26,136 bases of DNA from a virus. Shown one piece after another: positions 432 through 22,997 of this stretch. The stretch spans positions 1 to 26,136 of IMG/VR virus record IMGVR_UViG_3300020220_000286. One strand, given 5' to 3'. Both the position numbers and the translations under genes were made by a program. A model generated the notes under the pieces. The model had not been told where the DNA came from, searched no databases, and worked only from the letters and a program-made list of their open reading frames with translations. How positions within the stretch are numbered: position 1 is the stretch's first letter; each line of letters begins with the position of its first letter.

Positions 432-442
432 GGGTCTGTTGT

Positions 443-462
443 TTGATTACCTATGTAATATA
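443..462 (-). promoter_or_regulatory. Early-type promoter -10 with palindromic leader
   Basis: The minus strand reads TATATT (462-457) followed by ACATAGGTAATCAAACAAC, almost the same as the leaders at 1287 and 3841. Here one base breaks the ATTACCTAGGTAAT palindrome. No good -35 lies at 16-18 bases because that position falls in the terminator hairpin. It probably drives the 51-aa gene. Confidence 0.5.
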
Positions 463-465
463 GAG

Positions 466-489
466 CAAAATGGGAGCATTGCTGCTCCC
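466..489 (-). terminator. Intrinsic terminator after the 139-aa gene
   Basis: On the minus strand a perfect 7-bp stem, GGGAGCA/TGCTCCC (489-483 with 478-472, 4-base loop), is followed by ATTTTG. It lies 9 bases past the stop at 499 and directly upstream of the next TATATT box, giving a terminator-then-promoter arrangement. Confidence 0.7.
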
Positions 490-498
490 AGTGGACAG

Positions 499-918
499 TT
501 ATGCTGCTGTCACCTGCTCCTGGGGAATCTTTACACTTTCAAGATAAGTTACGTCATGCCACTTACAAGTATCGTAGCACAACCATTCACCATCAGTGGT
601 AAAGAGATAGGCATATTCTTCTGCATCTTGCGTGAGATAATCGCTGATGCGCCAGTCATGACGAGGACCACGATTCTCTTCACCACGAGAAGAATAATAG
701 AGAGGACCAGTTTCAGGTAGTGTCTCATTATCCCAACCGACATTGGTATAGAGAGCACTGATATCACCACCATCAATCAACTCAGCAACCTTCTCACGAG
801 TGTTGAAATGTTGCTGAAGTTTGACACCATTGTACTCAGGATAACCATCCCAGTGACAATAGATAGAGAGCACAGAATCGTCTGCGAGTTGAAGACCGAT
901 GCGAGAGCGGGTTGCCAT
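499..918 (-). CDS. Conserved phage hypothetical protein (139 aa)
   Basis: The protein starts MATRSRIGLQLADDSVLSI and continues with YCHWDGYPEYNGVKL, a Trp/Tyr/His-rich signature I associate with a widespread phage hypothetical family whose N-terminus combines MATRSRIG with a CHWDGYP motif. The C-terminal half carries WRISDYLTQDAEEYAYLF and a WLCYDTCKW segment. It looks like a soluble single-domain protein with no signal peptide or membrane segment. The ATG at 918 has no evident Shine-Dalgarno sequence. It follows the 28-aa membrane gene and ends at a terminator hairpin, so it closes the unit that starts at the 1287-1315 promoter. Function is unknown. Confidence 0.85.
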   Translation of the reverse strand: MATRSRIGLQLADDSVLSIYCHWDGYPEYNGVKLQQHFNTREKVAELIDGGDISALYTNVGWDNETLPETGPLYYSSRGEENRGPRHDWRISDYLTQDAEEYAYLFTTDGEWLCYDTCKWHDVTYLESVKIPQEQVTAA

Positions 919-2150: not shown

Positions 2151-2312
2151 TCAGACTGAAGGAGTAACGGAGATTTCTTTGATGTTGAGTCCACAGAGTT
2201 GACTGTAGACACGACGGAGAATCAAATCGACGGCAGACTTTGCCTTGGATCTTTCATACCAAACAGTGGTACATCCATCGTAGCACTCAACTTGAACGCG
2301 ATACATTTTCAT
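2151..2312 (-). CDS. Small basic hypothetical protein (53 aa)
   Basis: The frame starts with ATG at 2312, sharing one base with the stop of the 70-aa gene upstream (TGATG), and ends with TGA at 2151, two bases before the next start. The product MKMYRVQVECYDGCTTVWYE begins as a beta-rich segment, followed by a basic helix (RSKAKSAVDLILRRVY) and a strand-like end (LNIKEISVTPS). The beta-helix-beta outline is inference. Two Cys (C10, C14) could bind a metal, but no partner pair is close. Function is unknown. Confidence 0.65.
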   Translation of the reverse strand: MKMYRVQVECYDGCTTVWYERSKAKSAVDLILRRVYSQLCGLNIKEISVTPSV

Positions 2313-2524
2313 CAGTTACCCCAGAAAGCATCGTAGACATCAAAGACCCAATCAACAAGGTCATCAGTGCAATCGAGATTGAAACGATCGCACACCCAAT
2401 CGACACAATCTTCAACAGGAAGATGAGTGTCGCACATGTATGCTTGCAGGTCAGATTCCATGTGGAGTTTCAGCATTTCGAAGTCAGCAGTGAGAGCGAG
2501 AGAGATGGGGTCGTTGTTTTGCAT
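2312..2524 (-). CDS. Acidic hypothetical protein (70 aa), leaderless-type start
   Basis: I chose ATG at 2524 (MQNNDPISLALTADFEMLKL), not a longer frame from 2596, because a TATAAT box lies only six bases upstream and the extra N-terminal codons run through the repeat and the preceding gene's stop. The first four residues (MQNN) are encoded inside the 77-bp repeat and are shared with the 53-aa protein upstream. The C-terminal part is acidic with several Cys and Trp (MCDTHLPVEDCVDWVCDRF). Function is unknown. Confidence 0.65.
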   Translation of the reverse strand: MQNNDPISLALTADFEMLKLHMESDLQAYMCDTHLPVEDCVDWVCDRFNLDCTDDLVDWVFDVYDAFWGN

Positions 2525-2589
2525 ACCTGTATTATAGGCACACCATCGACCGCGATGGGGGCGTGAATGGACAGTTGTCCAACTGTCAC
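2513..2589 (-). repeat. Stem-loop/promoter cassette, copy A
   Basis: These 77 bases match 2736-2812 at 74 positions. On the minus strand the order is: end of the upstream gene, GACAGTTG/CAACTGTC inverted repeat (8-bp stem, 2-base spacer), a 40-base spacer, TATAAT (2536-2531), six bases, then ATG and the first codons of the next gene. The unit resembles the stem-loop plus early-promoter cassettes of T-even phages. No convincing -35 is seen. Confidence 0.85.
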
Positions 2590-2747
2590 ATGCCATTCAG
2601 GAAGTCATGGAGTGCCTCACGGTACTCCGCCTCAGTCTGAAAGACTCGCCCGTGGATTTCACGGGGATAGGTGGCAGTGGCAGCGGGTGCCTTGCTGGGT
2701 TCCTTGCCTTGGGAAAGGATCTGTTGGACGTAGTGGTTGTTTTGCAT
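2586..2747 (-). CDS. GC-rich small gene between two promoter cassettes (53 aa)
   Basis: Starting at ATG 2747 the product reads MQNNHYVQQILSQGKEPSKA, then a Pro/Ala linker, then REIHGRVFQTEAEYREALHD, a motif resembling small phage proteins ending in a short helix. It ends FLNGM at 2586, its stop lying in the copy A hairpin. TATAAT is six bases upstream of ATG, so the mRNA may be leaderless. The gene is visibly more GC-rich than the AT-rich genes at 2809-3286 and is bounded by near-identical repeats, suggesting acquisition as a cassette. A longer frame at 2597-2854 is a shadow. Confidence 0.65.
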   Translation of the reverse strand: MQNNHYVQQILSQGKEPSKAPAATATYPREIHGRVFQTEAEYREALHDFLNGM

Positions 2748-2812
2748 ACCTGTATTATAGGCACACCATTGACCGTCATGGGGGCGTGAATGGACAGTTG
2801 TCCAACTGTCAC
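2736..2812 (-). repeat. Stem-loop/promoter cassette, copy B
   Basis: This is the second copy of the cassette at 2513-2589. The inverted repeat spans 2793-2810 and includes the stop codon of the gene ending at 2809; TATAAT is at 2759-2754; ATG of the 53-aa gene is at 2747. Three differences from copy A cluster in the spacer. Confidence 0.85.
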
Positions 2813-2982
2813 TCTACCTGGCAGTCTGGGTGCCAGACTTTCAGAGATGCACAATACTGTTCTTTGGCAGTTTCTTTATAGTATGCCTTATACAGTTTGT
2901 CATCTCGTTGAATCAAAAATAGATTCCATCCAATTATGGCAAGAAAGGAAAGGGCAAAAGTAATAACGTATTTACGATCCAT
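2809..2982 (-). CDS. Single-span membrane protein (57 aa)
   Basis: I chose ATG at 2982 (MDRKYVITFALSFLAIIGWN), which overlaps the upstream stop by 11 bases; earlier ATGs at 2994, 3012 and 3018 overlap further. Residues 5-22 form one transmembrane helix behind a positively charged N-terminus, followed by a charged tail with two Cys (QYCASLKVWHPDCQVE). It could be a secreted or anchored small protein. Its stop is inside the copy B hairpin. Confidence 0.6.
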   Translation of the reverse strand: MDRKYVITFALSFLAIIGWNLFLIQRDDKLYKAYYKETAKEQYCASLKVWHPDCQVE

Positions 2983-3286
2983 GGAGAAACTCATGATGTT
3001 TTTGAAACTCATCTGCATCAGGAATACCTTTAATCCTATCTTTTAACCAATCTTCATCGTAAAACTCTACAATTTGATTCATTACATCTGTTTGATGAAG
3101 ACCTTTAAGAGAGTCCCAAAAACAATCAAATGCATAATCATACACTCCGCCGCGTTTCATATCAAATAGTCGCTGAGTGATATAATCAATCTTGAGACAT
3201 TCAAGTTGCTCCTCAATCAATTCTGGCACTTTATTAACCAAATCATTCTCTTCAGATTTCAGGATTTCGTCGTAAAGCATAGTCAT
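2972..3286 (-). CDS. Hypothetical protein (104 aa)
   Basis: The acidic, mainly helical protein starts MTMLYDEILKSEENDLVNKV and contains VYDYAFDCFWDSLKGL near the middle. A GGA Shine-Dalgarno-like core lies about 11 bases before ATG 3286. It starts 16 bases after the 75-aa gene and overlaps the downstream membrane-protein gene by 11 bases. No known domain is recognised; it could be a small host-takeover protein, but the sequence does not show that. Confidence 0.7.
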   Translation of the reverse strand: MTMLYDEILKSEENDLVNKVPELIEEQLECLKIDYITQRLFDMKRGGVYDYAFDCFWDSLKGLHQTDVMNQIVEFYDEDWLKDRIKGIPDADEFQKHHEFLHGS

Positions 3287-3817: not shown

Positions 3818-3827
3818 GAGCGTTGTT

Positions 3828-3869
3828 TGATTGCCTAGGTAATATATTGGACATTTGGGGCAGTTGCAA
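3828..3869 (-). promoter_or_regulatory. Sigma70-like early promoter with palindromic leader
   Basis: On the minus strand TTGCAA (3869-3864), a 17-base spacer and TATATT (3846-3841) are followed by ACCTAGGCAATCAAACAAC. The leader is nearly the same as those at 457 and 1287, with one change in the ATTACCTAGGTAAT palindrome. It drives the 42-aa gene. Confidence 0.75.
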
Positions 3870-3885
3870 GACCCAGTGTGCCACT

Positions 3886-4071
3886 TTAATAATTGTCACC
3901 ACCTCGCGCCTTATCGGCATCGGTCAATATCTGTAGCAATTCTTGAGATGCGTTGATTCTATCCATGATGGACTGATTTAATTCATCAGCACTCATTACT
4001 TCTTCACTATATTTGCCGAATAATTCTTGCACTTTTTCGTATGCTTTAACTGCTTTATTTGCTTCATCCAT
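3886..4071 (-). CDS. Hypothetical helical protein (61 aa)
   Basis: I chose ATG at 4071 (MDEANKAVKAYEKVQELFGK) because it overlaps the upstream gene by eight bases (ATGGATGA), as other pairs here do; a start at 4137 would overlap by 74. The protein is nearly all helix with charged heptads and ends KARGGDNY. It closes the unit beginning with the restriction-modification-like pair and lies just upstream of the 3841-3869 promoter. Function is unknown. Confidence 0.6.
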   Translation of the reverse strand: MDEANKAVKAYEKVQELFGKYSEEVMSADELNQSIMDRINASQELLQILTDADKARGGDNY

Positions 4072-4312
4072 CGTTTCTAGTGAATAGTAAAGTTTCGCAA
4101 TCATCAAGAAGTTGTGTGCGTGATTTGTGATATGCACTCATACGTTGAAGAGCATCACGAAAACATTTTGCAAACTCACCAGGTGTAAGAACATCTTCTT
4201 CCACATATGATGTGAGTATATCTTCCATATCCGCCACACATTTTTGTAACTGTTGTCTGTGATAATTTATATCACTGCATGGTGCGTCAGTTTCGCCTGG
4301 CACTTCAGTCAT
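4064..4312 (-). CDS. Hypothetical helical protein (82 aa)
   Basis: ATG at 4312 (MTEVPGETDAPCSDINYHRQ) gives an eight-base overlap with the upstream stop (ATGACTGA); an ATG at 4327 would overlap by 23. After a short polar N-terminus the protein is helical (QLQKCVADMEDILTSYVEED and EFAKCFRDALQRMSAYHKS). It resembles its downstream neighbour in size and helix content, so the two could be distant paralogues or partners. No domain is recognised. Confidence 0.6.
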   Translation of the reverse strand: MTEVPGETDAPCSDINYHRQQLQKCVADMEDILTSYVEEDVLTPGEFAKCFRDALQRMSAYHKSRTQLLDDCETLLFTRNDG

Positions 4313-4556: not shown

Positions 4557-4758
4557 CTGTTAACTCCCTAAACGACCAATTTTCATCTTCTGGCACATCA
4601 ACCCAAAACCAATAGTCTGAATTATCTATAGCAGAAAAAAACCATCGTTGTGCTTCTTTATGCTCTATATGCACCAGTGGATTGCTATTCAAATAATTTG
4701 CATAATTAACAACTGCTTTATGAGTTTTTGGATAAACTAATGCTTTTGCTCTCAACAT
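4543..4758 (-). CDS. Hypothetical protein (71 aa)
   Basis: The protein starts MLRAKALVYPKTHKAVVNYA and has an aromatic, acidic second half (WFFSAIDNSDYWFWVDVPED). ATG at 4758 overlaps the methyltransferase stop by seven bases (ATGTTGA). It may be a small accessory of the DNA-modification genes or an unrelated early gene; the sequence does not decide. No membrane segment. Confidence 0.65.
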   Translation of the reverse strand: MLRAKALVYPKTHKAVVNYANYLNSNPLVHIEHKEAQRWFFSAIDNSDYWFWVDVPEDENWSFRELTDGDS

Positions 4759-5588
4759 GATAATCGAGTAAGTAAATTATCTTGGAATGGTGTAATTCTA
4801 TTTACACACATATCATAGTATTCAGGGTCAATTTCAAATCCAATGAAATTACGGTTTTCTTCCAATGCAACCTGTGCAGTGGTGCCACTACCCATGAATG
4901 GGTCTAATACAATATCACCAGGATTACTCCAGGTAATGATATGACCCCGTGCTAACTCTTCAGGCATGGTAGCAGGATGTTTGTAAGATGTCTTGCTGGA
5001 TTGACCGAAACCACCTGAATTAACGATACGCCAGATATTAGTCCTGGCGCCCCATTCTCTTGTTTCTTTACTCTTTTTACCAGCATCTTCCAACTCGCCT
5101 GTCTTCTTCCTTGCCTTAGCATTGCCCCATGAAGATATACCTACCCACTTGTTCTTCTTGTCCATGATGATATTCACTGTTTTAGGTTTACCCTTGCTGA
5201 GGATAAAACAATACTCAAATGCTTGCGAATAACGCACACTATGGGGACCAGCAGCAAATGCAATACCAGACTTCTCGTAAATCATAGTATCGTGCAGACG
5301 CAATCCACACTCCTCCATGAAATACAATGCCTGACGAAAACTGCTACCAGATTCACCACCATTGATGGTGGCATCCCCCACATTCCACATAATAACACCG
5401 CCAGGTTTCAGCACACGAGTGAGAGCGTGTGCAACATCTTTGAAGACATTGAAATCCCATTTGCTGCTGTCATTATATGTGCGAAGGTCATCGTATGGTG
5501 GCGATGTGATGCAGAGATCTATACTCTCAGCATCCATTTGATTCATGCCGTCAATGCAGTTGATGTTGTAAGTTTTATTAATCTCCAT
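4752..5588 (-). CDS. Beta-class DNA methyltransferase (278 aa)
   Basis: This is an AdoMet-dependent exocyclic-amino DNA methyltransferase. Motif IV is TSPPY (residues 28-32) near the N-terminus; the AdoMet-binding motif I is DPFMGSGTT (229-237) near the C-terminus, followed by GFEIDPEYYDMC. Motif IV before motif I defines the beta class. SPPY is commoner in N4-cytosine enzymes but also occurs in N6-adenine ones, so the base is unsettled. KHPATMPEELA (203-213) is also typical. I chose ATG at 5588 (MEINKTYNINCIDGM); upstream starts only add residues unlike the family. The partner at 5654-6250 resembles a nuclease. It could alternatively protect phage DNA as an orphan enzyme. Confidence 0.93.
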   Translation of the reverse strand: MEINKTYNINCIDGMNQMDAESIDLCITSPPYDDLRTYNDSSKWDFNVFKDVAHALTRVLKPGGVIMWNVGDATINGGESGSSFRQALYFMEECGLRLHDTMIYEKSGIAFAAGPHSVRYSQAFEYCFILSKGKPKTVNIIMDKKNKWVGISSWGNAKARKKTGELEDAGKKSKETREWGARTNIWRIVNSGGFGQSSKTSYKHPATMPEELARGHIITWSNPGDIVLDPFMGSGTTAQVALEENRNFIGFEIDPEYYDMCVNRITPFQDNLLTRLSC

Positions 5589-5653
5589 GAAGACATTAAA
5601 AAGGCACAGATACATTGTATCTATGCCCATGATATTTGTCAAGAGGTAGAGAA

Positions 5654-6250
5654 TCAGAGCAGCACTTCTGTAGGCAGAGTGAGGAATTGCAGTTTCTTGG
5701 TTGCTGGTTTCACAACACCAAACTGTGAGAGGATGCAATCTTCTTCACCCACAAGCAGTTCGAGAGTGGAAAAAGAGTCTTTGCGACCGCCTGAGGATTT
5801 CCACACGTTAGATTCGGTCAGGTTAGTATCAATCACAACCATTCCGAAACTATCAACCTGATTGTTATTGAAGGTGTATTTGATAGACCATACGAGGTTG
5901 GTCTTAGCACCACCGAAGTGAGAGGTTTTGTTACCTGTGGCGAAAGACGATTTGTTATCGCCACCACCAAGTTTAAACTCTACTTCACAACCCTCGATGA
6001 TATAGTCATAACCCACATTTTCTTCGCGTTTGCCGTTGATACCCAGGACACGAATACCTTCTTCAATGACATCATTCACGATGTATTGGAAGAGTTTTGT
6101 GAAATCTGCAGTATTCATAGAATCTTTCTGATGCTGCAGCGTCTTACCAGCATATGTGCGATAGATCTCCAGCACATAACGGTTGACTTCACGAATCACC
6201 CAAGGGGTAAGTTGCTCGATTGCGTTGATTGCAGCAGTTTGATTAGTCAT
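5654..6250 (-). CDS. Putative PD-(D/E)XK-type restriction endonuclease (198 aa)
   Basis: The protein begins MTNQTAAINAIEQLTPWVIR with a helical N-terminal half. A possible nuclease core follows: GYDYIIEGCEVEFKLGGG (residues 80-97) with Asp82 and Glu91-x-Lys93, the D...ExK spacing of PD-(D/E)XK enzymes. Next come Ser/Lys/Asn-rich residues (SSFATGNKTSHFGG) and a strand (LVWSIKYTF). Length fits small type II restriction enzymes. GGAG lies seven bases before ATG 6250, the best ribosome-binding site in the left half, and a consensus promoter lies upstream. The next gene is a methyltransferase, which supports the call. Function is inferred from motif and context; it could be another phage nuclease. 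Confidence 0.6.
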   Translation of the reverse strand: MTNQTAAINAIEQLTPWVIREVNRYVLEIYRTYAGKTLQHQKDSMNTADFTKLFQYIVNDVIEEGIRVLGINGKREENVGYDYIIEGCEVEFKLGGGDNKSSFATGNKTSHFGGAKTNLVWSIKYTFNNNQVDSFGMVVIDTNLTESNVWKSSGGRKDSFSTLELLVGEEDCILSQFGVVKPATKKLQFLTLPTEVLL

Positions 6251-8203: not shown

Positions 8204-8888
8204 AATAATTCCTATCAATGGATTTTAAGTGGTCTGCCATGTGCTGCATTGGCACACTTATAGAAAGTCTTTTTTCCTGAGGTTGAGCATAGTGGAAACA
8301 TCTATTTGGAATATACAACATGTCTCCTGGTTTTAGATCGACATCAATAGCACATTCTAAATCTTTTTCATCTATATCATAGGCATATCTATCTACCAAA
8401 TAAGACGCCCTATTTTTATAAACTTTCCAATGAGTAATACCTTCAACTTGAATAATAAAATTATTTGCAAAATCTTCATGTATTTTGAATGATTTACTAG
8501 GTGATAGTCCACAATATACATGAAGAGCAGATTTTGTATTTGGAAAATAAGTTTCAAACTGCTGTAATATCTGTTGCTTTTGTCTAGTAATTAAATCAAA
8601 GTTATTGATAATTAAAGTATGTCCATCAATAAAAGCATCACGAATATCTTTAGCATCTGAGGAAGGTTTAGACCATGCTCTGTCATACCGCACAATATTG
8701 ATATATTTGTTAGTCACTTTATCAATCAACTGCATATCAAAAAATTGTGGATTATTAATGCACAATTCAACTTCATCCCACGTAGCAAAAACATGAGGAT
8801 CTTCAACAATTCCTTGCCAATACTGTGGGTCGTCGTTTATTGCCCACTTTTTAGTTGCATGTAGTTGTGTCAGAAGAGAAGATATCAT
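8181..8888 (-). CDS. JmjC/cupin-type Fe(II) oxygenase (235 aa)
   Basis: The protein has the layout of the cupin-like JmjC family that includes bacterial ribosomal-protein hydroxylases. FKIHEDFANNFIIQVEGITHWKVY (134-157) supplies His137-x-Asp139 and the GxxxWxxY segment; LKPGDMLYIPNRCFHYAQP (185-203) supplies the PGDxLYIPxxxxH motif with His199. It should bind Fe(II) and 2-oxoglutarate and hydroxylate a protein or small molecule. I chose ATG at 8888 because a TTG at 8900 is the only longer start. It overlaps the upstream gene by 38 bases. Its fold differs from the other three oxygenases, so it is not a recent duplicate. Confidence 0.85.
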   Translation of the reverse strand: MISSLLTQLHATKKWAINDDPQYWQGIVEDPHVFATWDEVELCINNPQFFDMQLIDKVTNKYINIVRYDRAWSKPSSDAKDIRDAFIDGHTLIINNFDLITRQKQQILQQFETYFPNTKSALHVYCGLSPSKSFKIHEDFANNFIIQVEGITHWKVYKNRASYLVDRYAYDIDEKDLECAIDVDLKPGDMLYIPNRCFHYAQPQEKRLSISVPMQHMADHLKSIDRNYYEIPRPD

Positions 8889-9516
8889 AATCAGATACAA
8901 AGTTAAGATTACAAATTATCCGATATGGATTTGTAGATGGATTACTTGATGAATGAAATTGATGTCCATCAAAGGCAAATAAAGTATTCTCTTTTGGAGT
9001 TACTCTTTTACACTCAGTATATTCTTGCGTACGTGCTTTATGCCATCTCTCGTCTATATTACCATAGTTTGGGTCATCATACTCATTGAAAAATACAGTA
9101 TCACCACTGGAATCATGAAAATAATATAGAGCAGCGTAATGATCTTTTTCACTATCGGTGTGCACACCATTATGATGTCCACCATTTCCATTATTTAATT
9201 GTAATGCAAGTCTAACTCTAGTAAATTCTATTGGGGCGGGCATTACATCCTTTATAGTATCAAGAAATGGGGCAAAATGGGGCAACCATGGGCTTTCAAC
9301 ACCATGATTATCAATTAAGAGATGAGTAAAACCAATTGATTTTTCTTCAGGTTTCATGTCTAATAATTTTGTATCACCAAAAGCATAACTGTGTGGTGTA
9401 TATGCAACATCTTCAGATAGAAAATACCACGGAAATCCTTTCATTCCACTAACCATATCAAACAATCTAGAATGATAAGATTTTCCTAGAAGATTGTTTA
9501 CCTGGATATATTTCAT
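8851..9516 (-). CDS. 2OG-Fe(II) oxygenase, P4H-like (221 aa)
   Basis: Iron ligands are in GVHTDSEKDHYAALYY (His119-x-Asp121) and FAFDGHQFHSSSNP (His188); Arg199 in NPYRIICNLNF is the expected 2-oxoglutarate ligand. SSGDTVFFNEY (137-147) matches the GxTxF segment of prolyl-4-hydroxylase folds. ATG at 9516 (MKYIQVNNLLGKSYHSRL) is the only ATG start; it overlaps the preceding gene by 50 bases, unusually long for this operon. Length fits a one-domain enzyme. The substrate is unknown; neighbours include three other Fe(II) oxygenases and the halogenase upstream. Confidence 0.9.
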   Translation of the reverse strand: MKYIQVNNLLGKSYHSRLFDMVSGMKGFPWYFLSEDVAYTPHSYAFGDTKLLDMKPEEKSIGFTHLLIDNHGVESPWLPHFAPFLDTIKDVMPAPIEFTRVRLALQLNNGNGGHHNGVHTDSEKDHYAALYYFHDSSGDTVFFNEYDDPNYGNIDERWHKARTQEYTECKRVTPKENTLFAFDGHQFHSSSNPSTNPYRIICNLNFVSDYDIFSSDTTTCN

Positions 9517-10132
9517 GATAATAATTTGAAAATGCTTGTATATTAAAAGAAATAGATATTCTTTCCCCATCGCTGTTACTCTTAGAAACAGAATGTAATA
9601 ACCAAGAGGGAAACATCACCATATAATCATTTACTGGAGAAAATGTAACTACATCTTCATTTAAGTTAGAGTTTTTGTTAAAATTATTACCTGCTCCCCA
9701 AAACTCTTTCATCATTTGAATATTAAGATCTCTATAGAGATTAAGTGCCCCAGAGCAACAATCAGGCACACTTAAATAATAAACACCAGACATAACGCTA
9801 CCTGGATGGTTATGAATAAGATTACTATGACCGTGATTATTTACATTCATCCAAAGATTAACAATGCGTAATGTATAATTTTGAAATCCAAACTTGTCTG
9901 CACAATAATATGCCATTTCAAGAATTTTACTTCTCAACTCATGCAATGGATTATTTTTCATAACTTCATCAACAAAGTCATGAGATTGCCATCCACCGTT
10001 GTTACTAACTACTCTCCCATCTGGGTCTTCATTTCGCACTACGTCAACAAATTTTAAGAGTTTATCTCTATCAAGTCCAACATCATCCTGAATCCACAAT
10101 GGTGTTGGAAATATCAAATTAGTTTCAATCAT
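9467..10132 (-). CDS. 2OG-Fe(II) oxygenase, TIGR02466-type (221 aa)
   Basis: The N-terminus METNLIF-like start (MIETNLIFPTPLWIQDD) and LWMNVNNHGHSNLIHNHPGS then VMSGVYYLSVP are hallmarks of the phage 2OG-Fe(II) oxygenase family TIGR02466/PF13759. Metal-ligand candidates are His107 and His109 in HNHPG and His180 in PSWLLHSV; Arg191 in ERISISFN binds 2-oxoglutarate in relatives. ATG at 10132 overlaps the previous stop by eight bases (ATGATTGA). It is the first oxygenase of the operon. T4-like cyanophages commonly carry this family; the substrate is not established. Confidence 0.92.
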   Translation of the reverse strand: MIETNLIFPTPLWIQDDVGLDRDKLLKFVDVVRNEDPDGRVVSNNGGWQSHDFVDEVMKNNPLHELRSKILEMAYYCADKFGFQNYTLRIVNLWMNVNNHGHSNLIHNHPGSVMSGVYYLSVPDCCSGALNLYRDLNIQMMKEFWGAGNNFNKNSNLNEDVVTFSPVNDYMVMFPSWLLHSVSKSNSDGERISISFNIQAFSNYYHEIYPGKQSSRKILSF

Positions 10133-10481
10133 CTTCAAATATGAAATCTTTATCAGTTACACTTGGGTCAACATGTTTCTTATATAAGGACATTGCTTCG
10201 ATTGCACCAACAAGTTTATTAATATGATCTTTTTTAAATTGCAATTCTTCTAAAGAAATCTTAGTGATTGTAGAAGTATAATGCATATTGTCAAGTGCTT
10301 CTCTCAACTTTTTGTAATCTTCTACAGCATCAGAGTGCTGTTGTAGAAAATTATTAACTAATTGGTCAAAAGTAATAAGTCCTTGAATTTCCTTACTCTT
10401 ATCAATTTCTAGACTTTCTTCACTTGTTGGTATTCCTGCTAGTTCTGCAAGATTTACTTCAGTTACAGTTTGCTCAGACAT
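10125..10481 (-). CDS. Coiled-coil-like hypothetical protein (118 aa)
   Basis: The protein starts MSEQTVTEVNLAELAGIPTS with an acidic disordered N-terminus, then a long helix (FDQLVNNFLQQHSDAVEDYK to ELQFKKDHINKLVGAIEAMS) with heptad spacing. It ends acidic (FIFEDD). It is the first gene after a CTAAATA late-promoter match and has AGAGG about 14 bases before ATG. It overlaps the first oxygenase by eight bases, so it could be a scaffold or adaptor for the enzymes; that is speculation. Confidence 0.75.
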   Translation of the reverse strand: MSEQTVTEVNLAELAGIPTSEESLEIDKSKEIQGLITFDQLVNNFLQQHSDAVEDYKKLREALDNMHYTSTITKISLEELQFKKDHINKLVGAIEAMSLYKKHVDPSVTDKDFIFEDD

Positions 10482-10483
10482 AA

Positions 10484-11368
10484 TTACATAAACCTCTTAA
10501 TGTTTTTATTTAGGGCAAGAATTGCTTTATGATTTTTGATTCTCTCTTTTAAATTACTGGATTCTAAAAAGTGCATACGCCTCTGATATTCCATAATTTG
10601 ATTGTTAGCAAAGTCCTCATCATTTGCTGATTCAACCACAATATTCCATCCTTTCATTTTTAAAAAATCTCTATGCACTGGCACCCACTGACATAATGGA
10701 GTGCCTGCTTTAATTAAATATTCACCTGGGTCTAACTTATGCCAGAACAATTGTAAATTAATTTCATACGAATATGATGGGTCAACAACTCCTGTGGGTG
10801 GAGTAAATCTATCTTCATCCCAATATGGAATAGGCATTTGAATAAACACAACATCGGGATGTGCTTGCACTCTCCATGGTAATTCAAGTTTAATTGTCGT
10901 ATCTAAAACATCTTTTGTTTGGTCAACTAAATGACGCATACCTTCAGTTTGTTGTGGAATATGTCCTGTTACAAATCGAGGATTTCCTACTGTGACATTA
11001 AATAGTCCTTGAGATAACCACTCAAAATCTATTGCGTTATCACCTATCTTAATTAGAATATCTGCTGGACATGGAAGTACATAACCAGAGTCCATGATTG
11101 AAGTTATTGCAGGGCAAGTTACAGCATGACCAGGGGATGGAGGGTTATAATTTTCTCTCCTTAGTTCTGCATTTGCTTTCTCCCACATATGTTTTACTTT
11201 AAGATATGGGCAACGTTTAGATTTATCTGCAGTTAATTTTAATGCATCAGTCCTCCACTTTCTATGAAGTTTTCTTGCTGGAAACCAAGGTTGTAATTCA
11301 GCAACACCAGGGTCAACTGAATAAAACCTAACCCATAGTTTCTTTTTAAAGATATTCATCAGTCCCAT
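10484..11368 (-). CDS. Unknown protein between halogenase and oxygenases (294 aa)
   Basis: The protein begins MGLMNIFKKKLWVRFYSVDP with a basic patch and contains CPAITSIMDSGYVLPCPADI (about 85-104), two Cys-Pro motifs, and IPYWDEDRFTPPTGVVDPSY further on. It looks like a soluble beta-rich domain followed by a basic helical tail (RMHFLESSNLKERIKNHKAI). From memory it resembles the family catalogued as DUF6065, which has no known function; I could not verify this. AAGGGA eight bases before ATG 11368 favours this start over 11359. It overlaps the halogenase by 23 bases, so the two are probably made together. Confidence 0.8.
   Translation of the reverse strand: MGLMNIFKKKLWVRFYSVDPGVAELQPWFPARKLHRKWRTDALKLTADKSKRCPYLKVKHMWEKANAELRRENYNPPSPGHAVTCPAITSIMDSGYVLPCPADILIKIGDNAIDFEWLSQGLFNVTVGNPRFVTGHIPQQTEGMRHLVDQTKDVLDTTIKLELPWRVQAHPDVVFIQMPIPYWDEDRFTPPTGVVDPSYSYEINLQLFWHKLDPGEYLIKAGTPLCQWVPVHRDFLKMKGWNIVVESANDEDFANNQIMEYQRRMHFLESSNLKERIKNHKAILALNKNIKRFM
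10507..10513 (-). promoter_or_regulatory. Late promoter match CTAAATA
   Basis: The minus strand reads CTAAATAA 26 bases upstream of ATG 10481, inside the 3' end of the 294-aa gene. CTAAATA is the variant reported for cyanomyovirus late promoters; the structural genes here use ATAAATA. It could give the oxygenase operon its own late transcription. Confidence 0.5.
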
Positions 11369-12932
11369 AAATGTTATCCCTTAGATATTCATAGTGTGAA
11401 GGAAGTTGTTGTACCCAATTTAACATAACTTCTCTGTCTTGTTGATATTTAGAGTGAGAAATTTCTAACTCTTCTAGATTAACATTTCTTTCCTTTATTG
11501 TAAAGTCTACAATAGGTCTATATCCAAGACCTGCCATGATATATGGAAGTCCATTGTAATTGGAATCATTGTATATATTTTCTGGATTTAACAAGATATT
11601 ATAATGTCCAGATGCAGCAATATATGTTGATTGCTTCACCCCAACCTGAGATTTTAAATCAACATGAGTGATTATATCTTTCCAATATTGAGTATCTTCT
11701 CGTTGACTCAATGTGTAATGCATAGCAACAAAGTTTTTCATTGTCTCTAACGCATTGTCAACGATAAAATTAAAACTATCTCTGTCAATTTTAGACACAA
11801 ATCCATTTCTACGTTGTAGTATATCACTTAGAAACATGAGATTTTCATGTGTAGTCATCAATCCTGTAGACTCTAATGGTTCTAAAAATCCGTAAGATAA
11901 TCCAATACCAACAACATTCTTTACCCATGCTTTTTCATGTTTTCCATGTTTAATACGAATTGGGCGAAGATGTGCAGACTCAGCAACTTCTGCAGAGTAT
12001 CTATTTGATAGATATTCTCTAAACTCTCTTTCAGCATCAGCATCTGAAATATATTTACTGCTATAAACATAACCAGTGCCTACACGATGCCAGAGTGGTA
12101 TATTCCATATCCAACCAGCATCCATTGCAACACAATCAGTATAAGTTTCCATCTGATTAATCCTATCAGTATATGGAATCTGAGTTGCTAACGCTCTATC
12201 ATTGTATAACTGATGATTAAATGATTTAAACTCAACTCCCATGTGTTGCTCTAACAACAACGATTTAAATCCTGTGCAATCAATAAACAAATCAGCACTG
12301 ATTGTATCATTATCTGTTGTGATAATAGAATTAATGGTGCCATCTGGTGTTTTGACAACATTTTCAATATCTCCTTTGATATGTACGACTCCATTGGGAA
12401 GAGCAATACTATCTCTCAGAAATTTTCCAAACAAATCAGCATCTAAATGATAGGCAGTATCCCATTCCGAGTCATAATTTGAATTAGGAATAGTCTCTGC
12501 AATTTTACACTCATCTGCGAGATAAGTATTCATATTATAGAAGCGAGCAAACTCTTCTGGAGGATATTGCTCCATTCCATATCTGCTTTGTAGCGCAAAG
12601 AAGTCAAATAAATTTCGTTTATAATCATCATTAAGATCCCATTTTCCAAAAGGATACTGAAATCTCTCACCAGTATTTTCTCTAAAATTTTTAAAAGCAA
12701 TGGAAGTTTTAAATGTTGCATTACATTTTGACATCCATTCTTCATCACGTAATTCCAAGCGATGAAGAAATCTATTGAATTGACCTAGGGTAGATTCTCC
12801 AACTCCAATAGGTTTTGTGACATTAGATTCAATTAATGCTATTTCAATGTCTGGAAATGATTTTGACAATAGAGCAGCAGACATCCATCCACTACTTCCA
12901 CCACCAACAATACAAATAGATTCAATTTTCAT
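11346..12932 (-). CDS. Flavin-dependent halogenase (528 aa)
   Basis: This is a tryptophan-halogenase-fold flavoenzyme that uses FADH2, O2 and halide to make hypohalous acid. Near the N-terminus GGGSSGW (10-16) is the FAD-binding glycine motif. TFKTSIAF places a lysine at 75, aligning with the catalytic lysine of PrnA. GWIWNIP (273-279) matches the WxWxIP signature that distinguishes halogenases from monooxygenases, and FLEPLESTGL (349-358) carries the conserved glutamates. Length matches the family. VirX1 from cyanophage Syn10 is a characterised marine viral relative in this family with iodination activity on diverse substrates; identity to it is unmeasured. Its start directly follows a terminator T-tract and no ribosome-binding site is seen. 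Confidence 0.95.
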   Translation of the reverse strand: MKIESICIVGGGSSGWMSAALLSKSFPDIEIALIESNVTKPIGVGESTLGQFNRFLHRLELRDEEWMSKCNATFKTSIAFKNFRENTGERFQYPFGKWDLNDDYKRNLFDFFALQSRYGMEQYPPEEFARFYNMNTYLADECKIAETIPNSNYDSEWDTAYHLDADLFGKFLRDSIALPNGVVHIKGDIENVVKTPDGTINSIITTDNDTISADLFIDCTGFKSLLLEQHMGVEFKSFNHQLYNDRALATQIPYTDRINQMETYTDCVAMDAGWIWNIPLWHRVGTGYVYSSKYISDADAEREFREYLSNRYSAEVAESAHLRPIRIKHGKHEKAWVKNVVGIGLSYGFLEPLESTGLMTTHENLMFLSDILQRRNGFVSKIDRDSFNFIVDNALETMKNFVAMHYTLSQREDTQYWKDIITHVDLKSQVGVKQSTYIAASGHYNILLNPENIYNDSNYNGLPYIMAGLGYRPIVDFTIKERNVNLEELEISHSKYQQDREVMLNWVQQLPSHYEYLRDNIYGTDEYL

Positions 12933-12934
12933 AT

Positions 12935-12958
12935 AAAAAAAGAGGTGTCTCCACCTCT
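12935..12958 (-). terminator. Strong intrinsic terminator before the halogenase
   Basis: On the minus strand AGAGGTG (12958-12952), a GAGA-type loop and CACCTCT (12947-12941) are followed by a run of T residues (seven Ts in all, to 12935). It lies 28 bases after the stop of the 142-aa gene at 12986. The T-tract ends two bases before the halogenase ATG. Confidence 0.88.
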
Positions 12959-12985
12959 ATGTATTATGCTTGAGACTCAGTTATT

Positions 12986-13414
12986 TTAGCGTGGCGGTTT
13001 CCAGTTGTCAACCCATGGGTCCCATGATGCTCTACCTGGAAGTTGTATTAACTTTGGATTTGGCACAAATGGGGGAATAGATGATGGTGCTGGATTTTCA
13101 GATTTTACTTTTTTAATATGGTCTACCCAGCGTGTGCCACCATCTAAAGAATCTTTATATTGCATATCTAGTTGTGCACCCACATCTCCATATCCAACCA
13201 TTCTAGAAACAGTTGCCGCTGCACGAAGATCTTCACACTCTGAGTGATGGACAACTTGCCCATTTATCATTACATGCTCATGTGTGCAATCATCTGGCAC
13301 ATCGCACCATTTCATATCGGCATCTGGACCTTCGTAAATTTCAAATTTATCTTCCTCATCACAAATATCTGTGATTGCTCCAGTAGCACGGGATATAATA
13401 GCGATTTTTGCCAT
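12986..13414 (-). CDS. Putative virion-associated protein (142 aa)
   Basis: The protein begins MAKIAIISRATGAITDICDE with a beta-rich N-terminal half including THEHVMINGQVVHHSECEDL. It then has YGDVGAQLDMQYKDSLDGGT followed by WVDHIKKVK, a QLDxxYxD...W motif recurring in small proteins encoded next to phage tail-fibre genes, and a Pro/Trp-rich C-terminus (ASWDPWVDNWKPPR). It has its own TATAAATA late promoter and an AAGGAG ribosome-binding site 12 bases before ATG, and is followed by the terminator at 12935-12958. It may be a fibre accessory or assembly protein; this is not proven. Confidence 0.8.
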   Translation of the reverse strand: MAKIAIISRATGAITDICDEEDKFEIYEGPDADMKWCDVPDDCTHEHVMINGQVVHHSECEDLRAAATVSRMVGYGDVGAQLDMQYKDSLDGGTRWVDHIKKVKSENPAPSSIPPFVPNPKLIQLPGRASWDPWVDNWKPPR

Positions 13415-13438
13415 GATAGATTTAAACTCCTTCGTTGT

Positions 13439-13446
13439 TATTTATA
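13439..13446 (-). promoter_or_regulatory. T4-type late promoter TATAAATA
   Basis: TATAAATA on the minus strand is an exact T4-type late promoter match, 25 bases upstream of ATG 13414 and abutting the stop (13447) of the preceding Gly-rich gene. Confidence 0.85.
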
Positions 13447-14256
13447 TCAACCAAAATACTCATATACGACTACAACTCCTTCACGTCCTCTAGCACCTCT
13501 GTTACTATCTCGGGACCCATTACCACCAGCACCCCAAGCTGCATGTGCCTCATGATTATGAGAATAGTTACTATTAGAGTGAGATGAAGGTTGACTGCCA
13601 CCCATATAGGATCTTCCTGCAGAATGATTCCCATAGCTGTAGTGAGACCCGTGACCATTTCCACCGCCGCCGAAGACATTCAAACTACCACCAGACCCAT
13701 TACCACCCAATCCACCAGCGTGTTGTTGAGAACAATTAGCACCAACACCACCGCCAGCAGAACAATAACCTCCAAATGAGGAACCATTTCCATTACCGCC
13801 ACATCCAGAGTAGTTAGTGCCACCTCCAGGGTTACCAACACTAACTCCCACTGAAGAAACATTAGTTACATCGATAACCATTTCTGCCATTCCACCAGCG
13901 CCACCCGATTCACAATATCCAGATCCACCTCCACCAGCACCAACAACTTGCACTCTAATACTTCTTACACCACTAGGTTTAGTCCAAGTACCATTGCTAG
14001 TGTAAACTTGCATAGATCTAAATCCACTAGCACTAGATACTGGAACCCAAGATAAGTTTGCTCCATCCGTAGTTAAATATCTACCACTATTTCCACTTAA
14101 TGATGGAATAATATATTTAGAAGACCCTGTAATTGTACCATTAATATTGATATTAGTGATTTTTAATGTGCCATGAGATGTAATTGCTCCTGAAGCAAGA
14201 TTAAATCCACTGAGACCCTGCTGGTCTTTAATAGATGTAACTCTAAGTATGCTCAT
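13447..14256 (-). CDS. Gly-rich tail-fibre/adhesin-like protein, copy 1 (269 aa)
   Basis: The protein has a structured N-terminal half (about 1-100) with an N-terminal SxLRVTSIKDQQGLSGF-like segment and LTTDGANLSW, and a Gly-rich C-terminal half from about 105. Gly-rich runs (GAGGGGSGY, GGGGNGHG) resemble polyglycine-II adhesin tips such as T4-like gp38, a parallel rather than proof. Cys recurs in GYCES, SGCGG, GGYCSA and ANCSQQH; a His/Asn/Ser segment (NYSHNHEAHAAWGAG) precedes the conserved GSRDSNRGARGREG end and a terminal YEYFG. It likely binds host surface or caps a fibre. It has its own late promoter and AAGGGG ribosome-binding site. Confidence 0.85.
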   Translation of the reverse strand: MSILRVTSIKDQQGLSGFNLASGAITSHGTLKITNININGTITGSSKYIIPSLSGNSGRYLTTDGANLSWVPVSSASGFRSMQVYTSNGTWTKPSGVRSIRVQVVGAGGGGSGYCESGGAGGMAEMVIDVTNVSSVGVSVGNPGGGTNYSGCGGNGNGSSFGGYCSAGGGVGANCSQQHAGGLGGNGSGGSLNVFGGGGNGHGSHYSYGNHSAGRSYMGGSQPSSHSNSNYSHNHEAHAAWGAGGNGSRDSNRGARGREGVVVVYEYFG

Positions 14257-14278
14257 TACACAATCCCCTTCTTAGATA

Positions 14279-14285
14279 TATTTAT
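14279..14285 (-). promoter_or_regulatory. Late promoter ATAAATA
   Basis: ATAAATA on the minus strand lies 23 bases upstream of ATG 14256 and overlaps by one base the stop codon of the next Gly-rich copy (14285). Confidence 0.8.
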
Positions 14286-15094
14286 TAACCAAAGTATTCA
14301 TATACGACTACAACTCCTTCACGTCCTCTAGCACCTCTGTTACCATCTCGGGACCCATTACCACCTGCTCCCCAAGCACAATGAGACTCATGACGATGGG
14401 AATAATTAGATTGGTTATGTGATGAGGGTTGACTGCCACCCATATAAGATACACCAGCAGTATGATTGCCATAACTATGGTTAGACCCATGACCATTTCC
14501 ACCACCACCATAAACGTTTATATTACCACCAGACCCATTACCACCCCATCCACCAGAGTGTTGTTGAGAACAATTAGCACCGAGTCCCCCAGATGCTGAG
14601 CAATAACCTCCAAATGAAGAAGTATTTCCATTACCACCACATCCAGCATAGTTAGTGCCACCTCCAGGGTTACCAACAGTGACTGATACCGAAGAAACAT
14701 TAGTTACGTCAACAATCATTTCTGCCATTCCACCAGCACCAGCAGATTCACAATATCCAGATCCACCTCCACCAGCACCAACAACTTGCACACAAATACT
14801 TCTTACACCAGTAGGTCTATTCCAAGTGCCATTACCAGTCCAAACTTGCATAGATCTAATGCCAGATGCAGTAGATACTGTTGCCCACTCTGTATTTGTA
14901 CCATTAGACATTAAAAATTTTCCAGCATGTCCTGATTGCACTGGAATTAAAAAATTAGATCTTCCTTGGATTTGTCCATTGATTACAAGGTTTGATACTG
15001 TAAGAGTACCTATAGTAGAAACCCCGCCACCAGAGAATGAAAATCCAGTAGCGCCTGTTAAGTCTCTAATTGAAGCAATTTTAAGTTGTGACAT
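14285..15094 (-). CDS. Gly-rich tail-fibre/adhesin-like protein, copy 2 (269 aa)
   Basis: This is the second of three tandem paralogues of exactly the same length. Its N-terminal region starts MSQLKIASIRDLTGATGFSF; from GIRSMQVWTGNGTWNRPTGV (about 79) onward it closely follows the others. The Gly-rich half has the same Cys motifs (GYCES, AGCGG, GGYCSA, ANCSQQH) and adds HCAWGAGG, where copy 1 has HAAWGAGG. The end is the shared GARGREGVVVVYEYFG. It is predicted to be a fibre-tip or adhesin subunit. The nearest homologues are the neighbours, and long exact DNA matches between copies suggest recent duplication or gene conversion. Confidence 0.85.
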   Translation of the reverse strand: MSQLKIASIRDLTGATGFSFSGGGVSTIGTLTVSNLVINGQIQGRSNFLIPVQSGHAGKFLMSNGTNTEWATVSTASGIRSMQVWTGNGTWNRPTGVRSICVQVVGAGGGGSGYCESAGAGGMAEMIVDVTNVSSVSVTVGNPGGGTNYAGCGGNGNTSSFGGYCSASGGLGANCSQQHSGGWGGNGSGGNINVYGGGGNGHGSNHSYGNHTAGVSYMGGSQPSSHNQSNYSHRHESHCAWGAGGNGSRDGNRGARGREGVVVVYEYFG

Positions 15095-15111
15095 AAGACT
15101 TAATTTTTAGT

Positions 15112-15118
15112 TATTTAT
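15112..15118 (-). promoter_or_regulatory. Late promoter ATAAATA
   Basis: ATAAATA on the minus strand lies 18 bases upstream of ATG 15094 and overlaps the stop codon of copy 3 (15118) by one base. Confidence 0.8.
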
Positions 15119-15927
15119 TAACCAAAGTATTCATGGATATACACAATCCCTTCACGTCCTCTAGCACCTCTGTTACCATCTCGGGACCCATTACCACCTG
15201 CTCCCCAAGCACAATGAGACTGATGATTATGGGAATAATTACTGTTAGAGTGAGATGAAGGTTGGGTACCACCCATATAGGATGATCCTGCAGTATGATT
15301 CCCATAGCTGTAGTGAGACCCATGTCCATTACCACCGCCACCGTAGATATTCAAACTACCACCAGACCCATTACCACCCCATCCACCAGAGTGTTGCTGA
15401 GAACAATTAGCACCAAGTCCACCACCAGCAGAACAGTAACTTCCAAATGAAGAAGTATTTCCATTACCACCACATCCAGCGTAGTTGGTACCACCTCCAG
15501 GGGTACCAACAGTGACTGATACCGAAGAAACATTAGTTACGTCAACTTGTCTTTGTGCCATTCCACCAGCACCAGCAGATTCACAATATCCAGATCCACC
15601 TCCACCAGCACCAACAACAGTAACCATAATAGTTCTTACACCAGTAGGTTTATTCCAAGTGCCATTACCAGTAAATGCTTGAATTGATCTAATGCCAGAT
15701 GCAGTAGATACTGTTGCATAAGATAAAGTAGACCCGTTGGTAGTTAAAAATCTACCACTATTTCCTGAAGGATTTGGAAGAATAAAAGCAGAAGATCCTG
15801 AGATAGTGCCATCAATAACAATATCAGTGACTGTTAAAGTGCCATTAGCAGTAATGCCACCAGCGGCAAGTGTAAAACCACCAAGTCCCTGAAGATCTCT
15901 AATAGAACCGAGTTTTAGCTGAGACAT
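15118..15927 (-). CDS. Gly-rich tail-fibre/adhesin-like protein, copy 3 (269 aa)
   Basis: This copy begins MSQLKLGSIRDLQGLGGFTL and shares with copy 2 the TGNGTWN-PTGVR segment, the four Cys motifs and HCAWGAGG. Its receptor-like differences include AQRQVDVTNV where the others have AEMxVDVTNV, and a distinct C-terminus (EGIVYIHEYFG). All three copies are 269 aa, implying selection against length change even as N-termini diverge. It is a probable late virion protein with its own ATAAATA promoter; TAGGAA lies 16 bases before ATG 15927. Confidence 0.85.
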   Translation of the reverse strand: MSQLKLGSIRDLQGLGGFTLAAGGITANGTLTVTDIVIDGTISGSSAFILPNPSGNSGRFLTTNGSTLSYATVSTASGIRSIQAFTGNGTWNKPTGVRTIMVTVVGAGGGGSGYCESAGAGGMAQRQVDVTNVSSVSVTVGTPGGGTNYAGCGGNGNTSSFGSYCSAGGGLGANCSQQHSGGWGGNGSGGSLNIYGGGGNGHGSHYSYGNHTAGSSYMGGTQPSSHSNSNYSHNHQSHCAWGAGGNGSRDGNRGARGREGIVYIHEYFG

Positions 15928-15950
15928 TTTATTATTCTACTGTTCCTAGT

Positions 15951-16262
15951 TTATTTATGCAAGTGGGATAAAAGAGAATTATAAAATAATCCTTCTGTAT
16001 TCAAGGTATTATGATGAATATCATGCCATAAATTTTCTAGTTGTTGCTCTATTGTTGGTTTCGGTTTTGGTGCATATTTTGCTGCCAAATCATTTTCTTT
16101 TTGCACAACTTCGCACATTGCCTCTATCTGTGGTGCATATGGCGCCTGATACATCGGGTCATTTGGAAAACTGATTTTTGTTAAATCACCATCTTCCATA
16201 ATAAACGATCTTCCATTAGAGAGGCGTCGAATTGCCTCTGCTTTCACATCATCAGAAAACAT
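15951..16262 (-). CDS. Putative fibre-associated small protein (103 aa)
   Basis: ATG at 16262 (MFSDDVKAEAIRRLSNGRSF) follows the upstream stop directly (TAATATG); a TTG at 16286 would run into the previous gene. After a helix and a small beta region (YQAPYAPQIEAMCEVV) comes TIEQQLENLWHDIHHNTLNT, a QLxxLWxDI motif also resembled in the 142-aa protein and typical of small proteins next to phage tail-fibre genes. It is probably an accessory or chaperone-like protein; exact role unknown. Its last codons contain the late promoter of copy 3. Confidence 0.75.
   Translation of the reverse strand: MFSDDVKAEAIRRLSNGRSFIMEDGDLTKISFPNDPMYQAPYAPQIEAMCEVVQKENDLAAKYAPKPKPTIEQQLENLWHDIHHNTLNTEGLFYNSLLSHLHK
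15952..15958 (-). promoter_or_regulatory. Late promoter ATAAATA
   Basis: ATAAATA on the minus strand lies 25 bases upstream of ATG 15927, inside the last codons of the 103-aa gene. Confidence 0.8.
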
Positions 16263-16263
16263 A

Positions 16264-17163
16264 TTAACCTCTAACTTCAACTGCAATTAAACTAGAAATA
16301 CTTCTCATATCATTAGACTGTCTATCATTAATATATAAATTTCGGACGCCACCACCCCAGGAAGCACTTGCACCAACTGAATATGTGCAAGGTGTTGTAG
16401 TATTAGGCATATCCATATACATGAATGTGGCATGATACATATGGTCTTCAGTATCATGCCCATCATAAACAGTGGCAACACTACCACTACTCACGTTAGT
16501 ATTACCACTAAGGTTTGTTGTAAGAATACTATTATTTCTTAAAAATCCAAATGTAGTAACATGTCTTTGATTAGAAGCAATACTAGCTAATAAAAGAATC
16601 TTGGAATTAGTATGTGTTGGTTGAAGTGTAACTTCTAATGATGGAATTGCAGTTAAGTTATCAGAAAAAATCAAATAACGAGTTGGGGGAGTTTGAGCAT
16701 ATCTTAATTGTAAAACGCGACCTTCACCAACATCATTATCTTCACCACCTAAAAGAAACCAGGTAGCACCGTTTTCGATAGTTACTGTAAATCCATTATT
16801 AATTTGCACTGGACCAGCAGTAAATCCATTAGTAAACTCTGTGCCACCATTTGCTACTGGTCCAATAGTAATATTTTCTTTAATCTGGGGACCATTAGTA
16901 CGAATAATAGAATCCTCACCTACAGCAGGACCACCCCCGCCAACATCATCCCAACCAGGAACACCTGCAGCAGCATCTGCTAAGTAGATTTGTGCCATAT
17001 CTTCGGTGGTATTATACACCAAAGTGCCATATGGTGGTATGCCTAGAGCATTAATTTGCGTCTGATTGAGAGCAGGCAAATTGACTTGCTCTGTAACCTT
17101 TAGAGCAGTTACCAGTGCTCTTGTTACAGCATCAATCTGATTTCCTATGATTTTGGTAGCCAT
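16264..17163 (-). CDS. Putative virion structural protein (299 aa)
   Basis: The protein begins MATKIIGNQIDAVTRALVTA with a helical start, then ALGIPPYGTLVYNTTEDMAQ and a Gly-rich spacer (DDVGGGGPAVG), typical of cyanophage virion proteins whose N-terminus attaches and whose C-terminus is exposed. The C-terminal half is beta-rich with Asn/Ser/Thr repeats and NLYINDRQSNDMRSISS near the end. It has GAGG seven bases before ATG and its own late promoter. It could be a fibre or baseplate-attached protein; homologues appear to be cyanophage-specific. No enzymatic motif is seen. Confidence 0.8.
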   Translation of the reverse strand: MATKIIGNQIDAVTRALVTALKVTEQVNLPALNQTQINALGIPPYGTLVYNTTEDMAQIYLADAAAGVPGWDDVGGGGPAVGEDSIIRTNGPQIKENITIGPVANGGTEFTNGFTAGPVQINNGFTVTIENGATWFLLGGEDNDVGEGRVLQLRYAQTPPTRYLIFSDNLTAIPSLEVTLQPTHTNSKILLLASIASNQRHVTTFGFLRNNSILTTNLSGNTNVSSGSVATVYDGHDTEDHMYHATFMYMDMPNTTTPCTYSVGASASWGGGVRNLYINDRQSNDMRSISSLIAVEVRG

Positions 17164-17185
17164 TTGACGCCTCTATTCGTTTAAC

Positions 17186-17192
17186 TATTTAT
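17186..17192 (-). promoter_or_regulatory. Late promoter ATAAATA
   Basis: ATAAATA on the minus strand lies 23 bases upstream of ATG 17163 and just past the stop of the 1190-aa gene (17196). Confidence 0.8.
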
Positions 17193-17195
17193 TTT

Positions 17196-20768: not shown

Positions 20769-20792
20769 TTATAGGAATCCTTCTATCTTGAG

Positions 20793-20799
20793 TATTTAT
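20793..20799 (-). promoter_or_regulatory. Late promoter ATAAATA
   Basis: ATAAATA on the minus strand lies 24 bases upstream of ATG 20768 and overlaps by one base the stop codon of the 730-aa gene (20799). Confidence 0.8.
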
Positions 20800-22991: not shown

Positions 22992-22997
22992 TTGAAA

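Follow-up and report, generated by a model that had tools for sequence, protein, structure and literature searches.

A promoter-bearing cassette between small early genes of T4-like cyanophages as a probable joint of gene exchange

From the sequence comparisons reported here, we consider it probable that a pair of direct repeats in a cyanophage genome fragment arose by recent duplication (or gene conversion) of a promoter cassette some 70 bp long, and that recombination from cassette to cassette adds, deletes and swaps genes in these phages. The window, by which we mean the whole stretch of DNA analysed (a virus record of 26,136 b), represents part of a T4-like cyanophage genome, with its early small genes on the minus strand; among the relatives found here, the Synechococcus phage S-SZBM1 is the closest annotated one in synteny. 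The direct repeat is 80 nt long (2510-2589 and 2733-2812), and its copies match at 95%, differing at four of the 80 positions. The original prediction had described near-identical cassettes at 2513-2589 and 2736-2812, each with an inverted repeat at an upstream stop, a TATAAT box and an ATG followed by the codons for MQNN, and all of these elements were confirmed (Table 1): 74 of the 77 bases agree (96%), the 8-bp arms GACAGTTG and CAACTGTC occur in both copies, each dyad overlaps a TGA inside GTGACAG, and the ATG (2524 and 2747) lies exactly 6 nt past TATAAT. Read on the minus strand, each copy runs GTGACAGTTGGACAACTGTCC...TATAAT-ACAGGT-ATGCAAAACAAC. None of the other pairs among the 483 compared within genomes is as similar as this one (0.948; the next reaches 0.83 and the median is 0.45), from which we infer that the second window copy is recent.

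Table 1. Cassettes, their parts and the genes around them in the window
Feature	Position	Strand	Basis
Cassette copy 1, upstream of the 53-codon gene and predicted to drive it; includes dyad, spacer, -10 and the MQNN codons with their start ATG	2733..2812	-	95% to copy 2; model R1, E 4.1e-9
Dyad GACAGTTG-GA-CAACTGTC of copy 1; shares bases with the TGA (2811-2809) that ends ORF 2809-3018	2793..2810	-	hairpin list
-10 box TATAAT of copy 1; 6 nt to ATG 2747; predicted +1 is the A of ATG	2754..2759	-	sequence; rigid family spacing
Cassette copy 2; contains the stop of the 53-codon gene and the ATG of the 70-codon gene that follows	2510..2589	-	repeat match; model R1, E 5e-10
Dyad of copy 2; shares bases with the TGA (2588-2586) that ends the 53-codon gene	2570..2587	-	hairpin list
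-10 box TATAAT of copy 2; 6 nt to ATG 2524	2531..2536	-	sequence
Third cassette, diverged (TGACAGCAGCATAACTGTCCA ... TATATTACATAGGTAATC)	447..513	-	profile, E 4.3e-5
Fourth cassette, weak, diverged	3839..3899	-	profile, E 0.018
53-codon gene, phrog_649, function not assigned; between both cassettes	2586..2747	-	ORF list, homologues
70-codon gene MQNNDPISL..., phrog_10297, function not assigned	2312..2524	-	ORF list, homologues
Upstream gene; in S-SZBM1 the homologue SSZBM1_22 (57%) likewise has its end at a cassette	2809..3018	-	comparison with S-SZBM1

The 77-bp unit, which had been proposed as a search query for related cyanophages, has no other exact occurrence (exact 20-mer and 30-mer scans of viral contigs; blastn against phages). 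A diverged family of such units is nevertheless widespread in T4-like cyanophages; it surfaced only when degenerate patterns were used and when homologues of the 53-codon gene were followed. Absence of the unit elsewhere, named at the outset as a refutation, is therefore true of the exact 77-mer but false for the family. A degenerate pattern retrieved at least 17 marine cyanophage-like contigs that have one common layout (inverted repeat, about 24 nt, CCTATAATA, AGGTAATCAAGGGA, ATG); the loose pattern CAGTT-N-AACTGTCCA alone was dropped as too common to inform. A search for homologues of the 53-codon gene retrieved 27 viral contigs, with identities of up to 92%, and most of these homologues are bounded on both sides by like units. 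The units around these pattern matches and homologues served to build a profile (model R1), which is based on sequence only because RNAalifold gave no consensus pair. It returned 218 matches in 41 cyanophage loci and none in reversed sequences. The units cluster in one small-gene zone per genome, with up to 14 per contig, nearly all are oriented in the direction of transcription, and the isolates that carry them include S-SZBM1, S-CREM1, S-WAM2, S-RSM4, ACG-2014d, Syn9 and S-PM2. Rfam held nothing relevant to the unit. The absence of the unit from all 194 cyanobacterial host genomes scanned at E 1e-5, with strict filters and no positive control, weakly suggests that it is phage-specific. A second repeat class, TATATTACCTAGGTAATCAAACAAC, is also present in the window (438-478, 1268-1308 and 3822-3862); these repeats carry the same -10 and AGGTAATC leader as many marine cassettes, and two of the three overlap diverged cassettes.

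The anatomy of the unit was drawn from 150 non-redundant members, which are phylogenetically dependent on one another. They share the layout of a dyad (GTGnCAGTT-N5-AA[C/G]TGnCCAC), about 50 nt, a -10 box and a start codon, the left arm of the dyad reading GTG[A/C]CAGTT and the right arm AA[G/C]TG[T/G]C-CAC. The -10 box is strongly conserved as TATACT or TATAAT and starts 51-53 nt from the beginning of the unit in 145 of the 150; no conserved -35 was found across the same set, and the bases 12 and 13 nt from the start of the -10 are A/G and T. The dyad is also tied to the end of the preceding gene, an ORF stop lying near it in 96 of 125 units as against 29-40 at random positions, with a TGA inside GTGACAG as the commonest arrangement (33 cases).

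At the other end of the unit, the first ATG past the -10 is 6 nt away in 31 units and 21-27 nt away in 96. Whenever an ATG coincides with the predicted +1, it begins an open frame of at least 35 codons (32/32, compared with 32% of random ATGs from the same strand), and the resulting N-termini (MNKT, MKNT, MKNN or MQNN) recur on otherwise unrelated genes. The 53-codon gene has homologues in 315 cyanophage records, which align from residue 3-4, and the S-SKS1 homologue of the 70-codon gene (50%) starts with MQTYTDP and likewise has cassette-like sequence upstream. Since the homologues of both window genes align only from residue 3-5 on, MQNN would belong to the cassette region, and both genes are predicted cases of leaderless translation.

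Gene order is less stable at the cassettes than elsewhere in the same zones. Within the cassette zones of 24 loci, adjacency was kept in 58% of comparisons when no cassette lay between the genes and in 37% when one did (bootstrap of the difference 0.12-0.31). Ends of DNA alignments fall inside cassettes in 30.0% of cases, 2.3 times the 12.9% expected at random (200 controls, maximum 15.1%), with a peak between +40 and +100, close to the -10 and the leader. The clearest single case is a pair of contigs in an empty and a filled state: L328 has one cassette (5688), whereas L317 has two (5591 and 5860) and an additional 269 bp, made up of one 62-aa ORF and one cassette. As far as the end of the -10, the L328 cassette follows the 5' cassette of L317; from the leader on it follows the 3' one, which places the crossover inside the cassette. 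A cassette in a third contig (L325:7539) is a chimera with its left part like L327:15189 and its right part like L326:6571. More generally, cassettes that share both neighbouring genes are about 90% alike, those sharing one about 57% and those sharing none 50%; the left/right asymmetry of half-cassette inheritance that mid-cassette crossovers would leave was not significant (p = 0.17). As most cassettes of one genome are only about 45% alike, the homology available for recombination would be short. Operon ends may also rearrange more for selective reasons, which would weigh against the shuffling model.

At the site of the window pair itself, S-SZBM1 has the order SSZBM1_22, one cassette (6412), SSZBM1_21 (MWDEIQDMPGEIFDF...) and SSZBM1_20, the last being the homologue of window gene 1958-2212. 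The window reads gene 2809-3018, cassette, 53-codon gene, cassette, 70-codon gene, gene 2151-2312 and gene 1958-2212. S-SZBM1 lacks the 53-codon gene and carries its homologue of gene 2151-2312 elsewhere in the genome. A state with a single cassette and no intervening gene, which the original prediction had suggested looking for in other strains, is seen in the L328/L317 pair (for the 62-aa ORF). The S-SZBM1 site has been replaced rather than simply emptied, and we found no strain that is nearly identical to the window but for the loss of the 53-codon gene. In the lake contigs L298-L301 (around 3940-4150), the 53-codon gene is fused in frame behind the first 15 codons of a gene like SSZBM1_21 (MWDEIQDMPGEIYDV), themselves behind a cassette. 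We take this fusion as the trace of a replacement at a site of this type.

This organisation is reminiscent of the promoter-early stem-loops (PeSLs) described in the T-even phages and further T4-like ones (Arbiol et al. 2010; Comeau et al. 2014; as cited in PMC4503421), which are likewise small repeated promoter-bearing units between hypervariable early genes, and at which genes are gained, lost or swapped. As in PeSLs, the cyanophage copies are clustered between small genes of hypervariable regions and genome differences break at the units. Of the sigma-70-like early promoter that each T4-type PeSL carries, the cyanophage units show a strongly conserved -10 and no conserved -35. What sets the cassette apart is that its dyad, which is present upstream of the promoter with neither covariation nor a T-run, behaves as a DNA motif at a rigid distance from the promoter, and that it overlaps a stop codon and can donate a start codon with an N-terminal tag. 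Moreover, the profile has no match in T4 (1-50000). The idea of a cyanophage version of gene-shuffling cassettes is supported as regards the family between small genes, the breakpoints and the empty and filled states, but not as regards the stem-loop or, over T4 1-50000, membership of the T-even family by sequence. PeSLs were previously sought in the ORFanage of S-PM2, a hypervariable region, where their density was judged too low to explain gene gain and potential stem loops were noted at 11369-11391 (Puxty et al. 2015, PMC4503421). A profile unit at 11350 overlaps that place. The ORFanage and its neighbour (8575-24052) contain about 10 candidate units with E < 0.1, most of them without a good hairpin.

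The dyad could instead be an RNA stem-loop, acting as a terminator or as a protector of the mRNA 3' end of the upstream gene, as in the T-even PeSLs. Its position at the stop codon of that gene suits such a role, the window copies have perfect 8-bp arms able to form a hairpin of 7-8 bp (RNA fold z -2.07 and -1.34), and the first 28 nt of the units fold slightly better than shuffled sequence (mean z -0.81); the C-rich spacer, however, gives the same z as these 28 nt, and in many units the stem is only 3-4 bp. Across the 150 units, arms pair no better with their own partners than with swapped ones (5.62 against 5.72 of 8), the CAG/CAC and CTG/GTG alternatives of the two arms are independent (p = 1), and no T-run was found after the dyads. 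Given this lack of covariation and of a U-tract, together with the rigid distance from dyad to -10, a DNA operator is likelier than a stem-loop, the latter being in our view quite improbable, and the label of stem-loop first given to these repeats was abandoned. The parsimonious reading is that of a putative DNA-binding dyad centred near -52 of a promoter without a -35, which a protein would recognise.

In 2016, Doron et al. reportedly described a novel early-gene regulatory element in Syn9 that is conserved in T4-like cyanophages, with P-TIM40 also covered. We find about nine units with E < 0.05 in the small-gene region of Syn9 (44775-52997) and a weak match in P-TIM40. The cassette resembles that element in being promoter-like with an extra upstream element, and its units occur in Syn9, P-TIM40 (weakly), S-PM2 and other T4-like cyanophages; the promoter part of the cassette is thus probably the same element and already known. 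To our knowledge, the latter has not been described as a recombination joint or as a donor of start codons, and what seems new here is the early element as a PeSL-like joint that supplies stop and start codons. The units might of course be merely conserved early promoters of this kind, one per early gene, that accompany whole-gene exchange with no causal role for the cassette. The location of the units in the small-gene region of Syn9, the phage of the reported element, accords with such an explanation, as do the divergence of most cassettes (median 45%) and the missing overall half-cassette signal. It is nonetheless unlikely, considering that cassette junctions are broken more often than cassette-free ones in the same zones, that the L317/L328 crossover lies inside a cassette, that L325:7539 joins left and right parts of different origin, and that the window pair is 95% alike. 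The record being an IMG/VR-type fragment, one may also think of a false tandem duplication in the assembly of a metagenomic contig. This is hardly credible, however: the two copies differ at 4 of 80 positions and in their flanks, each is in frame with its own gene, and the 53-codon gene sits between two cassettes in many independent contigs.

For the recombining cassette we propose the following scheme. In the sequences, the first bases of the dyad often provide the stop codon of the preceding gene and are followed by a fixed spacer, a -10 without a conserved -35 and a predicted transcript start region, AT[G/C]AACAAAAC... Where this region reads ATG, it serves directly as the start codon and contributes a short N-terminal tag (MNKT, MQNN). 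The dyad may bind a transcription activator or serve as an upstream promoter element for early transcription by the host RNA polymerase, the resulting mRNAs presumably being leaderless or short-leadered. As the small genes are each bounded by units, recombination between cassettes would add, delete or swap one gene together with one cassette, and the neighbours would remain properly stopped, promoted and started. In the window, the module would consist of the 53-codon gene and one cassette, separating the conserved gene 2809-3018 from the genes that once followed it. In its widest form, to which we give somewhat less than even credence, this scheme makes one promoter element of T4-like cyanophages, above all freshwater ones, a plug-in slot whose activator-type dyad with stop codon, -10 and start at +1 would give any small gene between cassettes early transcription and a leaderless translation start with the cassette tag, cassette recombination being the main route of early-gene turnover. 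The hyperplastic regions of cyanophages hold hundreds of small genes with no assigned function, and a recognisable and widespread joint makes their turnover testable. With the unit, early promoters and leaderless starts can be predicted from the DNA and gene starts corrected, and it suggests that the dyad is read by a putative activator.

Pfam yielded no domain for either of the flanked genes (53-codon and 70-codon). The 53-codon gene is indeed richer in GC than its surroundings, as had been noted at the outset: its GC of 0.56 and GC3 of 0.65 are the regional maximum, the neighbours ranging over 0.35-0.49 (0.38 for ORF 2809-3018 and 0.35 for ORF 2972-3286). Its homologues, however, are equally GC-rich (0.55-0.65) inside their own low-GC loci, and we therefore rejected composition as a sign of import. 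Other genes of the window deserve brief mention. At 13447-15927, three paralogous genes of 269 aa each stand in tandem; they are rich in glycine, have repeat blocks 84-87% identical in DNA and are probably tail-fibre or adhesin-like. A DNA methyltransferase gene (4752-6250) resembles cyanophage N6A methyltransferases and adjoins a 198-aa ORF that could be a putative restriction-type partner. Beside the structural genes, a 296-aa ORF (24895-25785) appears RimK/ATP-grasp-like by eye.
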